The notes below the pieces were generated by a model. The model had not been told where the DNA came from and made no database searches. It saw only the letters and a program-made list of their open reading frames with translations. From a virus: a stretch of 53,350 bases of DNA. Within the stretch, counting starts at the first letter, position 1; every line of letters starts with the position of its first letter. The stretch lies in IMG/VR virus record IMGVR_UViG_3300045049_000093, positions 1 to 53,350 of that record; one strand, 5' to 3'. A program made the position numbers and the translations under genes. Shown here in pieces: positions 31,698-41,088 of this stretch.

Positions 31698-32166
31698 GTT
31701 TAAACCCTCCTGTGGGGCGCTATGCGCTATAGGCTACCGAGTGTCTTGTCACGTGATGACTCTCACTCACCTAGTACCTTTAACTCCGTCGTGAGTTCTG
31801 CGACTAGGGACAGTACGAAGACTTATACTCGCACCTATCCGCGCGTGCAAGTACTATTTCGTTATTCTATTATGGCATAGTTTTTGCTTAGTTGTCAAAT
31901 TACAACAAAACTACTATGCAATGCTCGTGCCAAAATATAGAAAACCGCGATCTATTTTTATTGGTATGAAGGTACAGGGTACGTATCTAAATGGCATAAG
32001 GAGCGTTATAGAACGATTTCTGAGTATCTATACAGTACACACCTACCATAGGTCCGTTGTATATACGTAGCCTATGCGTTGCATGAGAGAAATCGTTAAC
32101 CGTTGTACAATATAGACATCAACCCATATACTACGTATACATAACTGTATGATAAATAAGGGAAAT
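31698..32166. other. intergenic promoter region without genes
   Basis: About 470 bases without a supported gene on either strand. It holds the divergent promoter of the early minus group and several short palindromes such as CGCGCG and ACTACGTA. Frames of up to 76 codons on the minus strand here lack ribosome sites and family resemblance. Confidence 0.5.
31869..31898 (-). promoter_or_regulatory. sigma70 promoter for the early minus genes
   Basis: On the minus strand TTGACA (31898-31893), 18 bases, CATAAT (31874-31869). The -35 is perfect and the -10 matches five of six. A start near 31862 would give a 165-base leader before the GTG at 31697. Confidence 0.8.
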
Positions 32167-32195
32167 TTGACAAACCGCATGTATAGGCGTAAAAT
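32167..32195 (+). promoter_or_regulatory. sigma70 promoter for the first plus gene
   Basis: TTGACA (32167-32172), 17 bases, TAAAAT (32190-32195). Start expected near 32202, leaving a leader of about 220 bases before 32421. It points away from the 31.87-kb promoter. Confidence 0.85.
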
Positions 32196-32316: not shown

Positions 32317-32346
32317 ACGATAGTTTTTTAACAATCAGACTTGCAC

Positions 32347-33544: not shown

Positions 33545-33553
33545 GGAAAATCG

Positions 33554-33607
33554 AAGCCAAGTAAGCTATGCAGCAACGCTGTATGGCCTACTTGGCTTTT
33601 CTTTTTT
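33554..33607 (+). terminator. intrinsic terminator 2
   Basis: AAGCCAAGTA (33554-33563) pairs with TACTTGGCTT (33589-33598), with an inner CAGC/GCTG stem, followed by TTCTTTTTT. Confidence 0.88.
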
Positions 33608-33619
33608 GTTTTAATTCCT

Positions 33620-33648
33620 GCCTAGGCAACTACTGCCTAGGCTTTTTT
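33620..33648 (+). terminator. intrinsic terminator 3
   Basis: GCCTAGGCA (33620-33628), loop ACTAC, TGCCTAGGC (33634-33642), then six T. The stem may work on both strands because a T run also precedes it on the complementary side only weakly. Confidence 0.9.
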
Positions 33649-34627: not shown

Positions 34628-34656
34628 TTGACAAATGGCGCAGTCTTTGCTATAAT
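34628..34656 (+). promoter_or_regulatory. perfect consensus sigma70 promoter
   Basis: TTGACA (34628-34633), exactly 17 bases, TATAAT (34651-34656). Start expected near 34663. No better match to consensus exists in the window, and no long gene follows it before a terminator. Confidence 0.93.
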
Positions 34657-34662
34657 ATACCT

Positions 34663-34913
34663 GTAAAATGAGAAATCGGTAGCGGCGGCCAAGATGCAAA
34701 ATGATGTTCGTAATAAGGAGGTGTGCCATGACGTGAAACTTGTTTAGCTTGCCTAACTTTACTTTTTCTCACCACACATTAAGAAAGTAAGGTAAGCCGC
34801 GTTATTGCCCAACGTCGAACCAATATGGTTTATGCGGGCCTCACTCCCCCGCATAGAGGACGTTACGCTAGATTGGAAGCCGGGACAGAGTAGCTGACTG
34901 TCCCGGTTTTCTT
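34663..34913 (+). ncRNA. about 250-nt structured noncoding RNA
   Basis: It lies between a perfect promoter and a strong terminator and has no ORF above 17 codons. Hand folding gives a helix ACTTTACTTT/AAAGTAAGGT (34756-34765 with 34784-34793, one G-U). Next is a three-way junction closed by GCGT/ACGC and AACGTC/GACGTT (34811-34816 with 34859-34864), with arms AACCA-ATA-TGGTT (34818-34830) and TATGCGGG/CCCGCATA (34831-34838 with 34848-34855). Then comes the terminator hairpin. An AAGGAGGTG site followed by ATG ACG TGA sits near 34716-34735. A regulatory RNA made early and strongly by host polymerase is the simplest reading. Confidence 0.75.
34880..34913 (+). terminator. intrinsic terminator of the noncoding RNA
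   Basis: CCGGGACAG (34880-34888), loop of nine, CTGTCCCGG (34898-34906), then TTTTCTT. Perfect GC-rich stem. Confidence 0.93.
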
Positions 34914-34971: not shown

Positions 34972-35469
34972 ATGCGTTCATCTGGCGGGAAGACTCGCTT
35001 GGATGTTCCTGGGTTCTCTTTCGGTGTTAAGACCGGAGAATTCGTTGATGTTCCTAGAATATTTGGTGGTCGTGGTGCAAAACGTAAAAGCGGTAAACCG
35101 CATACATATTCTGAACTGGCAAGTCGTGCTCCATCTAGGAGTGTCGCTATTGCCAGCGCCATCGCTCGTCATGAATACAATAAAGGCAAGCGATTTCGCT
35201 TAAAGCAGAAAAAACAACCTAAAACTAATCACATTGCCGCGTACTGCTTGCGGCGCTACCTAGAACTATCAGGTTTAAAAACCTACAACTTCGCTTATGC
35301 GGAGAATCCGGAATTAATTATTCCGAAACCAAAAATAGTTTACGAGGTAACTGACGGTTTACTGCCGTGGGTTACTTTTACTAGTTCGAGAGAAGCTATG
35401 CTTATGTGCGCTACTCTCGCACGATTTGGAATTGCTGCATACTTTAATAGCAGGAAAATTTACCCGTAG
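34972..35469 (+). CDS. 165-residue basic protein of unknown function
   Basis: From the ATG at 34972 (GGGCGGG upstream); a TTG at 34951 would add seven residues. First half is basic and Gly/Ser/Arg-rich (RSSGGKTRL, GGRGAKRKSGKPHTYSELASRAPSRS, KGKRFRLKQKKQPK); the second half is a folded alpha/beta domain ending in AMLMCATLARFGIAAYFNSRKI. Looks like a nucleic-acid-binding tail plus a small globular domain. It is followed by a strong terminator. Confidence 0.6.
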   Translation: MRSSGGKTRLDVPGFSFGVKTGEFVDVPRIFGGRGAKRKSGKPHTYSELASRAPSRSVAIASAIARHEYNKGKRFRLKQKKQPKTNHIAAYCLRRYLELSGLKTYNFAYAENPELIIPKPKIVYEVTDGLLPWVTFTSSREAMLMCATLARFGIAAYFNSRKIYP

Positions 35470-35488: not shown

Positions 35489-35541
35489 CCCTCCTTAAAG
35501 GAGGGAATTTTATCCAGGGCGCCCTAGGCCCTGGATTTTTT
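35489..35541 (+). terminator. double hairpin terminator
   Basis: CCCTCC-TTAAA-GGAGGG (35489-35505), then ATCCAGGGC (35512-35520) with GCCCTGGAT (35528-35536) and a run of six T (35536-35541). Confidence 0.88.
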
Positions 35542-36329: not shown

Positions 36330-36575
36330 ATGCCCAAGCTTAAAAAGCAAGCCAAACACGAAATCCGGACAATAGTTACTACTAAAGGAGGGAATACAGT
36401 GACTGGTGCCTGTATCACAGTACTGTCTCATTTGCTGCCCGGCGCCAAAGCTCTGTGCAATAGAATTCAAGATGGATTGGATAAAGAAGCAATAGCAGCT
36501 CGGGTGTATTTATTTACTGACAACATCCCTGTTTACGCTGCGTACGGTATTGAAGAGAAGCGCAACCATGGCTGA
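36330..36575 (+). CDS. 81-residue protein, first gene of the amidoligase operon
   Basis: ATG with AAGGA seven bases upstream. Alpha/beta pattern (HEIRTIVTTKGGNTVTGACITVLSHLLPGAKALCNRI and RVYLFTDNIPVYAAYGIEE). No family recognised. The stop overlaps the ATG of the first amidoligase by 8 bases, so the two are co-translated; it could be a partner or inhibitor of that enzyme. Confidence 0.6.
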   Translation: MPKLKKQAKHEIRTIVTTKGGNTVTGACITVLSHLLPGAKALCNRIQDGLDKEAIAARVYLFTDNIPVYAAYGIEEKRNHG

Positions 36576-37479
36576 TAAAGATTTTGGCCCCCGTATTGGA
36601 GCTGACCCAGAAGTATTTGTACAAAATAAAGAGGGGATAATTGTCCCTATTTGTGGACACATTGGGGGTACTAAAGAAAAACCAATTGAAATTACTCAGG
36701 ACATCATTAATCTATATGGCCCGGAAAATGGAGCCAGGCGCGGTGTGGTGGCTCAAGGCATTTATGCCATGCAGGAAGATAATGTAATGCTGGAGTTCAA
36801 TATTCCAGCATATACAGAATCTGGAAGGTTCGTGGAGTCCATTAGTAGAGTTCTAGGTTATCTGGAAGCTTCTGTATTGGCTCCCAAAGAACTATCCATT
36901 CGATATGGGGTAGTGGACAATGCGTTCAAATCGGAACTTCTCGAAAGTTTCATGCAATCCAGCACCATCGGCTGTAATCCTGATTTTAACGCCTATGCCA
37001 CCGATGGACGATTCCAAAGGAAAGCATTTTCAGCAATGGATTTCGGCAACCGACGCTTCTGTGGTGGGCATATACACGTACAGTACAACCAGGAGCACGT
37101 GCCGCCTCATATTTTTGCACAGTTCATGGATGTCGTGGCCTGCCTTCCCTATCTCTCTCACGACAAGCAGCGTGGACGTAGATTGTTCTATGGTCAGCCT
37201 GGCCTTTTCCGAATTAAAGATTACGGTATCGAATACCGAACACTCTCCAATTTCTGGTTACATCCGAAATTTCGGGAAAGGTATTTGCAAGGGTTGGCAG
37301 AGAATGTGCTTCGCTTAGCACATTATGCTAATAGCGATCCAGATGTGCTGAAGAAATATTATTCCCGCATAGATTGGGATAAAGTTCAACAGTTTATCAA
37401 GAACGAAGATTCGAAAAAGTCCATTAAATTGTGTCGTGAAATTCAAGATCAAACGGGAATGATTCTAAACATACCATAA
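36568..37479 (+). CDS. COOH-NH2 ligase, phage phiEco32-like type 2 (glutamine-synthetase fold)
   Basis: 303 residues from the ATG at 36568; an ATG at 36550 would add six. The family signature is clear: GADPEVF at 11-17, QEDNVMLEFNIP at 69-80, GCNPDFNAY at 135-143, GGHIHV at 166-171 and YGIEYRTLSNFWL at 219-231. These acidic and His residues are the metal/ATP-binding positions of the glutamine-synthetase-like amidoligase fold, which joins a carboxyl group to an amine with ATP. Substrate unknown. It is the first of at least six enzyme genes in a coupled operon. Confidence 0.88.
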   Translation: MADKDFGPRIGADPEVFVQNKEGIIVPICGHIGGTKEKPIEITQDIINLYGPENGARRGVVAQGIYAMQEDNVMLEFNIPAYTESGRFVESISRVLGYLEASVLAPKELSIRYGVVDNAFKSELLESFMQSSTIGCNPDFNAYATDGRFQRKAFSAMDFGNRRFCGGHIHVQYNQEHVPPHIFAQFMDVVACLPYLSHDKQRGRRLFYGQPGLFRIKDYGIEYRTLSNFWLHPKFRERYLQGLAENVLRLAHYANSDPDVLKKYYSRIDWDKVQQFIKNEDSKKSIKLCREIQDQTGMILNIP

Positions 37480-37480
37480 A

Positions 37481-38155
37481 ATGAAGAAACGACAGTGCGA
37501 TGTGGAGAATATCTCGGACTTCACTCGCTATTATAATAATTCATGGGTAGGATGGCGTGAAAACAACGGCAACGTCACTCCAATTCTAATAGGCAGCCAG
37601 CCTGCCTCCGAGTATGTATCTATTAAACGTCTTACCAGACAAGGCGATATTTTCCAAAATGGTCCATGGCTTCCTGTGAAAATGGATGCAATTAAAGATT
37701 TTGTTGATTTTGGAAGACCGCCTATAGGTATGATGCAAAATAACGGTACTATAGTATTTATGTCTTATTCCACACCTCGACAACCCCACAAGGGATTACG
37801 AACAAGAGAGGTTGGAATAAATCACTTCAACTCCAAAGATATTGCCAAAAAAGTAAACGTACCTATCCCTAGAACTGAGACCAGACTGGATTGGGTTTGG
37901 TATGCGTTTAATCCAGAATATACATCAATTGAAGAAGGATTTAAGCTTCTGGAGAATGGGGAGAAAGTAGGAGTTCCTATCAGTAGAATTCTTGGAATGT
38001 ATTCTGTCCCGGATCGAATACATCCGTATTTAGCGTATAAGAGGTGGACGGTAGGTTACGTAGTTAGTCCTACAGATATCAGACTACACAATGCATACGA
38101 AGAATATAAAGATTACATCCAGAACAAAACTGGAGTTGAGGTAACACTCATATGA
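37481..38155 (+). CDS. 224-residue amidoligase-operon protein
   Basis: No named family. Alpha/beta sequence with TRYYNNSWVGWRENNGNVTPILIGSQPA at the start, a conserved-looking RTREVGINHFNSK, and WVWYAFNPEY. The pattern EGFKLLENGEKVGVPIS..LG suggests a small binding domain. It starts one base after the first amidoligase stop and shares ATGA with the second amidoligase, placing it between two ligases; a peptide-carrier or substrate-binding role is possible. Confidence 0.65.
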   Translation: MKKRQCDVENISDFTRYYNNSWVGWRENNGNVTPILIGSQPASEYVSIKRLTRQGDIFQNGPWLPVKMDAIKDFVDFGRPPIGMMQNNGTIVFMSYSTPRQPHKGLRTREVGINHFNSKDIAKKVNVPIPRTETRLDWVWYAFNPEYTSIEEGFKLLENGEKVGVPISRILGMYSVPDRIHPYLAYKRWTVGYVVSPTDIRLHNAYEEYKDYIQNKTGVEVTLI

Positions 38156-39435
38156 GTCTGGCTCGGGTCCTCGGAAAACAAAGAGGACGACAATCTTTTA
38201 ATCCCGATAGTCGATGGGTACTTCCCAGTGATTTTATGGGATGGGAATTCGAGTACGAAGGAGTTTCTAACAAGGAACTACCTAATCATACGTTTGCGGA
38301 TTTCTGGGAATATCACGAAGAAAGAAGTCTCTACGACAGAGGCGCTGAATATGTTTTTGCGACGCCACTTTTTGGTGCGGACGCTTACAATGCTCTTGCT
38401 TGGCTCGTAGATCACGCCAAGAAACAAGGATGGAGGTGTACTAAGAGAACAGGAATCCATGTACACCAAGATGTACGTGATCTTGAAGTTCCACAATTGG
38501 CTGGATTGTGTATCCTGTACGCAGCCTTGGAACCACTAATCTATAGGTGGATCGGAGATGGTAGGGATACTTCTCACTTCTGTATTCCACTATACAATGC
38601 GGATGAGACCCTTGTAGATGTATGTAAAATCATTAAATCTGCAATAGCGGACGATAAATCCGGAGGAAATCTTACTCTAGCTTTGTCCGATAGCTATAAA
38701 AGATATGCAGGGTTCAACCTGCAATCTTTGTCCAAATTTGGCTCTATAGAATATCGTCACATGCAGACAACTCATGATCTAGATAGGATCATTAATTGGG
38801 GGAATATAATTCTATCTTTAAAGGCCGCTGCCCGTAAGCTTCCGCAAAGCGACGGAGCAGTAGTACGCATGCTAGAAAGGATGGATATTTACGATGTATT
38901 GCATTATGTATTTCCTCCTCACATTGTAACGCTACTGCAGACTCCAGACGCTTACTCTCAGTTTGTAGAAGATGGACTTTCTTCAGCAAGAGATATCGCA
39001 GTTCACGGATGCAGCACTAAAATTGACTGGGTACGATCTTTTGGCCCTAAAGGAGAAAACAGAGGATTTAAAATATGGGTATCTGCCAACAAGACGGAAA
39101 AGGAAAAGAAAATTCAAGACTGGATTGACGATGTAGAAAGAGATGATGATGGTGATGGTGACGGAGAAAATGTGAATCAGGAGGCTAGGGATGAAGGAGA
39201 ATTGTTCCGAGATTTCCATTTTGAACATGTCGCCGTCCCAGGTGCTGAGGCAATAAATCGCCCTCCTGGGAATAGAGTAAATCCCCCTCCTGGGATCGAT
39301 GAAATGTTAGCAAGATTTAATGATGCATTGATCAGACCTAACCAAAGATGGATAGTACAACCTATCCCTCAACCTCAAGGAGCTGGTGCTGTAGTAGCTG
39401 AGGGTGTAGTCCCTCCAGTTACTCCTCGACGATAA
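38152..39435 (+). CDS. Amidoligase_2 family enzyme
   Basis: 427 residues. Signature of the putative amidoligase family: FMGWEFE at 28-34, RGAEYVF at 63-69, RTGIHVH at 99-105, RYAGFNL at 184-190 and GSIEYRHMQTT at 197-207 followed by NW at 215-216. This is a second, different branch of glutamine-synthetase-like amide ligases. After residue ~335 follows an acidic DDDGDGDG stretch and a Pro-rich tail with two near-copies of RPPGNRVNPPPG, probably disordered and maybe itself a modification target. ATGA coupling to the upstream gene. Confidence 0.85.
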   Translation: MSLARVLGKQRGRQSFNPDSRWVLPSDFMGWEFEYEGVSNKELPNHTFADFWEYHEERSLYDRGAEYVFATPLFGADAYNALAWLVDHAKKQGWRCTKRTGIHVHQDVRDLEVPQLAGLCILYAALEPLIYRWIGDGRDTSHFCIPLYNADETLVDVCKIIKSAIADDKSGGNLTLALSDSYKRYAGFNLQSLSKFGSIEYRHMQTTHDLDRIINWGNIILSLKAAARKLPQSDGAVVRMLERMDIYDVLHYVFPPHIVTLLQTPDAYSQFVEDGLSSARDIAVHGCSTKIDWVRSFGPKGENRGFKIWVSANKTEKEKKIQDWIDDVERDDDGDGDGENVNQEARDEGELFRDFHFEHVAVPGAEAINRPPGNRVNPPPGIDEMLARFNDALIRPNQRWIVQPIPQPQGAGAVVAEGVVPPVTPRR

Positions 39436-39454
39436 TTCGATAATTCGATAATTA
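39431..39454 (+). repeat. three tandem GATAATT(C/A) units
   Basis: GATAATTC, GATAATTC, GATAATTA in a row at the stop of the Amidoligase_2 gene, followed by the leader AAATAGGATAATAATT of the next gene. A similar ATAGGATAATTAT leader precedes the genes at 46280 (plus) and 9675 (minus), so it appears to be a favoured ribosome-site context. Confidence 0.6.
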
Positions 39455-39477
39455 TAAAAATAGGATAATAATTACAA

Positions 39478-41088
39478 ATGTGTGGAATTCTTGGTTTCGC
39501 GTCTACAGAGGGAATGAAAAATCGTTCTCTCAAACAAAATTTCTTTGGTACTGGTTTTCCTATGATCGCAGCAGATCGGGGGCAAGACAGTTCAGGATTA
39601 GCTCTTATAGAGAATGCTAATTCTACTCCTATAATTTACAAACGAGCACTTCGTGGGGCAGACTTCATCGACCTGAAGCCTACGATGAGGTACATGAATG
39701 ACATTGAAAAGTATGCCGTTGCTATCGGGCACGTACGATCTGCTACAGCGTCCCGTGGCAATATCACTGACTACAACGCCCACCCATTCCAATACGGTCA
39801 CATTACACTCGTCCATAATGGCCATATTCGTAATGCAAATTCCTTACCAGACTCCAAAGATGCCCAGTCTTCAGTAGATTCAGCTATGGTTGCTTTCTCC
39901 ATGGCTAAAAATGGAGAGAAGGAGACATTAGAGGCGGTAGAAGGGGGGTTCGTATTCGTCTGGTGGAATTCTAAGACTAAAACTCTGAACATTGCCAGGA
40001 ACGAAGAGCGGCCTATTCATATGGCCTATATTGACGGTGAGAATTCTCTTTTCTGGGCTTCAGAATTGACACATTTGGGCCATCTATTGAGGTACGCAAA
40101 TATTGATGAAGATGAGAACAAAGGAGGGTTTTTACATCCTGAACCATCTCATTGGTATGTCTATGATCTCAAGGATTTGAGGAGTTTTGAAAAACGCCCT
40201 TTTGTGAAGCGCCAGGGACGGCGCAATCATGGGACTACGGGCCAGGTGCATGGCAGCGTGAACGCCCATACAACGGGCCATACGGAATTAGACAAAATAT
40301 GGGAGGAAGAGGTCGCAGCCTGGCAAGAGTATCAGAATCAACAATCATCGATGCCAGGGAATATTTCGAAGGAGGAAACCACGGAATCTGCGACGTCTGA
40401 TTCCGATGAACTTACGGAAATTCGAGACAAGCTTCGGCATCAACGATCCAAAGATGCTAAAAAAGCTGGAGTACCTACTTCTCGGAAAGGACTGGAGAAA
40501 GCTAAACAGAAGCTTAGGAATATGGGCATTCAATTTCAAGAATGCCGTCTTTGTTACCCTACTTCTTGGTCTAAATACCATAATCAGCCGAATAGGGGCT
40601 CCATGATTGCAAGGATGCGTAAGGGAGGTTATTTCGTAGAGATTGTAGATACTACTATGGAGCAGTACCAAAGAGCCACAGATGACGGAGCAGTAATTGT
40701 GGAATGTGTGAATGTACGCAACGGAGCACGTGGATACGTGCATGTAGTAGGAATAATGGCTACACATCAAAATGAGACTTATCACAGAATTAAAAATAAA
40801 TATAAAGAAAGCGCAACAGTGGACAAGGAGGCTACGAAGTCTGCTCTAGGAGCTCCTCCTTTAGATTATAACGGCCCATCTGGTCAAAAAATATCTCTAG
40901 CAAAATTTAAGGAACTCACTGTTTCAGGCTGTTCCAATTGCGCTGAAATAATTGAGCCTATAACCCATGAATTTGTTGTGTGGGTAGGAGGCGGGCAGCC
41001 CTTATGCGCAAATTGCTCTACTAACCCTTCAGTACTGGAAAGCGTTGGTTTTCCAGACCACCTGAAACAGCAACAACAGATGCATTAA
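39478..41088 (+). CDS. class II glutamine amidotransferase with C-terminal zinc ribbon
   Basis: 536 residues. MCGILGF places the nucleophile Cys2; RGQDSSG at 34-40, GHVRSAT at 84-90, AHPF at 101-104, HNGHI at 113-117 and D134 complete the Ntn-hydrolase glutaminase. It releases ammonia from glutamine. No asparagine-synthetase or sugar-isomerase domain follows; instead there is a linker, a C356/C359 pair and a C485-C488/C510-C513 zinc ribbon, perhaps for docking a partner or nucleic acid. In this operon the ammonia or glutamyl group probably feeds an amide-forming ligase. Confidence 0.88.
   Translation: MCGILGFASTEGMKNRSLKQNFFGTGFPMIAADRGQDSSGLALIENANSTPIIYKRALRGADFIDLKPTMRYMNDIEKYAVAIGHVRSATASRGNITDYNAHPFQYGHITLVHNGHIRNANSLPDSKDAQSSVDSAMVAFSMAKNGEKETLEAVEGGFVFVWWNSKTKTLNIARNEERPIHMAYIDGENSLFWASELTHLGHLLRYANIDEDENKGGFLHPEPSHWYVYDLKDLRSFEKRPFVKRQGRRNHGTTGQVHGSVNAHTTGHTELDKIWEEEVAAWQEYQNQQSSMPGNISKEETTESATSDSDELTEIRDKLRHQRSKDAKKAGVPTSRKGLEKAKQKLRNMGIQFQECRLCYPTSWSKYHNQPNRGSMIARMRKGGYFVEIVDTTMEQYQRATDDGAVIVECVNVRNGARGYVHVVGIMATHQNETYHRIKNKYKESATVDKEATKSALGAPPLDYNGPSGQKISLAKFKELTVSGCSNCAEIIEPITHEFVVWVGGGQPLCANCSTNPSVLESVGFPDHLKQQQQMH

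Follow-up and report, generated by a model that had tools for sequence, protein, structure and literature searches.

What is made from a perfect phage promoter when the 250 nucleotides that follow it contain no gene of meaningful length and end in a strong terminator? This question is raised by positions 34628-34913 of the window, i.e., the whole stretch of 53,350 nucleotides that was analysed (IMG/VR virus record IMGVR_UViG_3300045049_000093), where the initial annotation had proposed a dedicated regulatory RNA of the phage. In the account given here, this supposed novel regulatory RNA is replaced by a testable layout, which is formed by a promoter signature, a slot for small open reading frames (ORFs), and a cluster of terminators.

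Extent and Predicted Fold of the RNA

Based on the positions of the promoter and the terminator, the predicted transcript of approximately 250 nt extends on the plus strand from its presumed start to the end of the terminator (34663-34913). As had been pointed out from the letters of the sequence, no gene of meaningful length lies before the terminator: the longest forward ORF that is wholly contained in the leader has 30 aa. The strong terminator itself is also present (34875-34913, plus strand), in the form of an intrinsic terminator with a hairpin of 13-14 bp, of about -20.6 kcal/mol, and a U-rich tail, UUUUCUU, and it is located between the promoter at 34628 and the first gene (34972-35469).

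The description of the locus as a structured RNA stands only in part, given that the fold of the full leader is exceptional in relation to its shuffles (z -3.52) but becomes ordinary when the terminator hairpin is left out (z -1.07), with 33 of 200 shuffles being equally stable. The remaining predicted elements include a long hairpin (34718-34816, plus strand), with an inner arm that pairs 34747-34764 with 34781-34797 and pair probabilities mostly of 0.77-1.0, and the three-way junction reported previously (34811-34864, plus strand), in which the two arms have predicted pair probabilities of 0.62-0.98 and the closing helix, AACGTC/GACGTT, reaches just 0.12-0.16. As an isolated module of 54 nt, which was picked post hoc for the shuffle comparison, the junction is more stable than 99.2% of the shuffles (8 of 1000 were as stable) and ranks in the top 1.5% of the 54-nt windows of the genome. 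Given that 274 of these 17,766 windows fold equally well, and that helices of 5 bp or longer that abut each other were seen in 44 of 300 shuffled leaders, the earlier statement that the arrangement is unlikely by chance was too strong.

The search for similar RNAs gave only chance matches for the leader DNA in phages and plasmids, and no match to the arm patterns of the junction, which were looked for in viral and genome contigs. The Rfam search suggested in the initial annotation, which was run with covariance models at gathering and relaxed thresholds, returned nothing credible for the leader, and no known class was matched above its gathering score. The sequence of the leader and its three stems are also absent from three relatives that have the same promoter (the viral contigs L002, L005, and L126), which are distant, with about half of the residues identical and none close in the comparison, so that a young, lineage-specific RNA could have been missed. 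Within its own genome, the longest complement of the leader RNA has 13 nt.

A Promoter Conserved Together with a Downstream Gene

The promoter (34628-34656, plus strand) is of the sigma70 type, TTGACA-17-TATAAT with an extended -10 (TGC), and is syntenic in four related phages. It deserves the name of perfect that it had been given, as it matches the consensus at 12 of 12 positions, is the sole 12/12 promoter within 26-45 kb, and is the single exact match to TTGACA-N(16-18)-TATAAT in the 53,350 bases of the virus record. Searches of the whole records of L002, L005, and L126 also returned one perfect match apiece, and in each of the four phages it lies upstream of the gene found at 34972 in the window or its homologue, at a distance of approximately 290-700 nt; a fifth relative, a fragment without the region of this gene, contains no such match. 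One perfect promoter per genome, constantly upstream of the same gene, thus points to the conserved promoter of the transcription unit of that gene.

This downstream gene (34972-35469, plus strand), which the 34628 promoter must serve, was overlooked in the initial annotation, and no promoter-like site with a match of at least 9/12 is found on the plus strand between 34913 and 34972. Its product of 165 aa has a conserved DVPGFSxGxKTGE motif and homologues with 47-55% identity in L002 (60,967 bases), L005 (57,673 bases), and L126 (61,285 bases). No match to this protein was found in Pfam or PHROG, or in a protein search of bacterial genomes, and its predicted structure, of low confidence (pLDDT 60), has no fold match. 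The unit is closed by a further terminator (35512-35541, plus strand), with counterparts in L002 and L126 that lie 62-64 nt past the homologue, which places a terminator 62-67 nt past the gene in three of the four phages. The sequestration of the Shine-Dalgarno (SD) sequence of this gene was considered as well, with accessibility being among the lower ranks in the four phages (5th of 23, 2nd of 13, 1st of 9, and 1st of 14), and was dropped at a combined p of only 0.036.

The conservation extends beyond the -10 element to the first 17 transcribed bases, which form a +1 box (34663-34679, plus strand; GTAAAATGAGAAATCGG in the window, consensus GTAMARTGRRAAWTHGG) that starts 6 nt past the -10 and is kept in the window, L002, L005, and L126. 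The other plus-strand early promoter, at 32167, shares the box in part, 6-7 nt from the -10, as do the matching promoters of L002 and L126 (combined p of about 1e-5, offset-corrected); the L005 counterpart of the 32167 promoter is a weak fit. The perfect -35 and -10 elements and the fixed +1 box provide a promoter signature by which early units can be recognised in an undescribed phage group. The supposition that the RNA would be early and abundant comes from the promoter alone.

Given the conservation of the promoter, the +1 box, and the downstream gene in four phages, and the presence of the RNA and its stems in no relative, the 250 nt probably form the 5' leader of the DVPGF-family gene and its transcription unit, and contain a terminator that would act prematurely, in the manner of an attenuator. 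Host sigma70 polymerase would start at about 34663, from one of the two plus-strand promoters that share the box (32167 and 34628), and would transcribe a leader carrying a very short translated ORF. A fraction of the polymerase would then terminate at 34913, releasing the leader RNA of approximately 250 nt, and the rest would read through into the 34972-35469 gene and stop at about 35541, with the terminator at 34913 setting, and perhaps regulating, the expression of this gene.

On the other hand, the same features may be read as a dedicated, stand-alone small RNA with targets in the phage or the host, on which it would act in trans, with other transcripts providing for the expression of the downstream gene. 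The perfect promoter, discrete length, strong terminator, and several stable helices all agree with such an RNA, which would look identical in a single genome, and the release of a short, terminated RNA is plausible in itself. The comparison of genomes argues against a dedicated regulatory RNA, however, given that the promoter is conserved together with the gene, while the RNA was found neither in the relatives nor in the searched collections, and has no Rfam match. The lack of conservation of the RNA next to a conserved promoter-gene pair makes this reading less likely, its structure without the terminator is within the range of the shuffles, and its best complement in its own genome has just the 13 nt noted above; overall, we consider it unlikely.

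The Premature Terminator and Its Possible Counterpart

The leader with an attenuator-like terminator, which is the reading preferred here, has to accommodate a terminator that looks strong and the lack of a significant antiterminator helix. In truncated transcripts, the 5' arm of the terminator is predicted to pair with 34677-34690, at the 5' end of the leader, and the gain is matched by 49 of 300 shuffled leaders, so that this candidate antiterminator is not beyond chance.

No canonical terminator of comparable strength was found in the leaders of L002, L005, and L126. L002 and L126 share a hairpin of a non-terminator type, which covaries through compensatory changes and is followed by CUUAUAA, preceding the start codon by 59 nt in L002 and 47 nt in L126. 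When a covariance model of this hairpin was applied to the leader of the window, the best match was the terminator hairpin, which has the same CUUAUAA and lies 54 nt before the start. Given the weak score (10.2 bits, with E 0.021 in 401 nt and E 5 in 94 kb), the homology of the two hairpins is suggestive only, and the terminator of the window may be the counterpart of the conserved hairpin. The strong plus-strand terminators of the window, five in number, are all located within 33.6-36.3 kb, which makes it plausible that this region is controlled through termination.

A Slot for Small ORFs and a Two-Codon ORF

Between the +1 box and the downstream gene, the four phages differ in content, with two small ORFs in L002 (78 and 64 aa), one of 50 aa in L005, one of six codons with an ordinary SD (-9.3 kcal/mol) in L126, and one of two codons in the window. 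The leader region reads as a slot into which small ORFs are swapped.

Small ORFs at the same place in L002 and L005, an unconserved leader sequence, and a fold that is ordinary without the terminator would also be expected if the slot were neutral, i.e., if a small first gene had been lost from the window and an unselected leader were left, with a terminator arisen by chance. In the window, however, neither the strong SD nor the terminator is disrupted, and the search for coding remnants of the small ORFs of the relatives in the window leader found no detectable similarity, which makes such a decayed slot distinctly improbable.

The two-codon ORF, which had been missed in the initial annotation, lies with its SD at 34714-34736 (plus strand). 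It consists of AUG ACG UGA, with the AUG at 34728, and would encode fMet-Thr-stop. The SD, UAAGGAGGUG, has a 10-nt core that occurs once in 53 kb and a predicted duplex of -16.1 kcal/mol, compared with -10.4 kcal/mol for the best among 47 scored genes. The SD is predicted to be partly open and the start codon paired (unpaired 0.03-0.09).

The lambda bar minigenes are ORFs of the AUG-AUA-stop type, the toxicity of which appears under a limiting supply of peptidyl-tRNA hydrolase (PMC8012679). This precedent, together with an SD that exceeds those of all 47 scored genes and stands directly 5' of the AUG, raises the possibility of a minigene RNA in the window, the ribosome-binding site and two codons of which would capture ribosomes and, through the drop-off of peptidyl-tRNA, slow early host translation. 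The window resembles the bar minigenes in having a two-codon ORF with a ribosome-binding site, here an unusually strong one, but differs in the second codon, which is ACG and not AUA, and in the start codon, which is predicted to be buried in a helix. Given also that the exact SD-minigene pattern has no match in viral contigs, and that, among the relatives, only L126 has a very short ORF, with six codons and an ordinary SD, a minigene function is very unlikely. Somewhat less probable still is the combination of the two roles, in which an abundant early leader RNA, a by-product of attenuation, would also work as a ribosome-capturing minigene RNA through its perfect match to the anti-SD and its two-codon ORF. 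The two-codon ORF and its outsized SD nevertheless offer a cheap test case for minigene-like capture of ribosomes by a phage.

Comparison with Known Systems

Attenuated mRNA leaders have the order seen in the window, i.e., a promoter, a leader with a short ORF, an intrinsic terminator, and then the gene. The window differs from them in being without an identified antiterminator or effector, and in a terminator that is not conserved as such in the relatives. Similarly, in the account of Sy et al. (2020) given in PMC12197685, StxS is a small phage RNA that arises from the early termination of a phage transcript, and the terminator ahead of the phage gene in the window would likewise release a short leader RNA, although the phage and the sequence are unrelated and the RNA of the window is a predicted one.

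The put RNA of phage HK022, of about 70 nt and two stem-loops, is antiterminating (PMC9378689), and shows, by way of precedent, that an RNA made early by a phage can act on polymerase. By its described features it resembles the leader of the window as a structured RNA from early phage promoters that stands ahead of several terminators, but it antiterminates, whereas the leader of the window ends in a terminator. Considered as a whole, the leader is a useful rather than an extraordinary regulatory element, well placed in an undescribed phage group.

Observations on the Neighbouring Region

Past the 32421 gene, at 33551-33642 of the window, two terminators stand in tandem, both of them very strong (-29.9 and -17.0 kcal/mol). 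The leader of the same gene contains a boxA-like element at 32324-32338 (TTTTTTAACAATCAG), which has the form CTCTTTAACAATCAG in L002, CACTTTAACAATCAG in L126, and TTCTTTAACAAAC in L005 and a further relative, L133. It resembles the boxA of bacterial rRNA that is bound by NusB-S10, and could possibly serve in Nus-dependent antitermination or as a decoy site.

Divergent promoters on the minus strand share a downstream motif, CCTAGTCGC...ACTCACGACGGAG (with the variant CCTACTCGCTGGCCCTCACGACGGAG in L126), which is located at about 31780-31898 in the window, 200-346 in L002, and 640-765 in L126. Between the two plus-strand promoters, a gene pair is present in L002 (3020-5316), L126 (3334-5708), and L127 (2430-4755), and, judging from its sequence alone, reads like a ribose-phosphate pyrophosphokinase and a nicotinamide phosphoribosyltransferase, i.e., NAD salvage; in the window, three other small genes replace this pair.

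Finally, models of defence systems gave no match to the neighbouring genes, and a cluster of COOH-NH2 ligase or amidoligase and glutamine amidotransferase-like genes, at 36571-41088 of the window, is conserved in the phage group.
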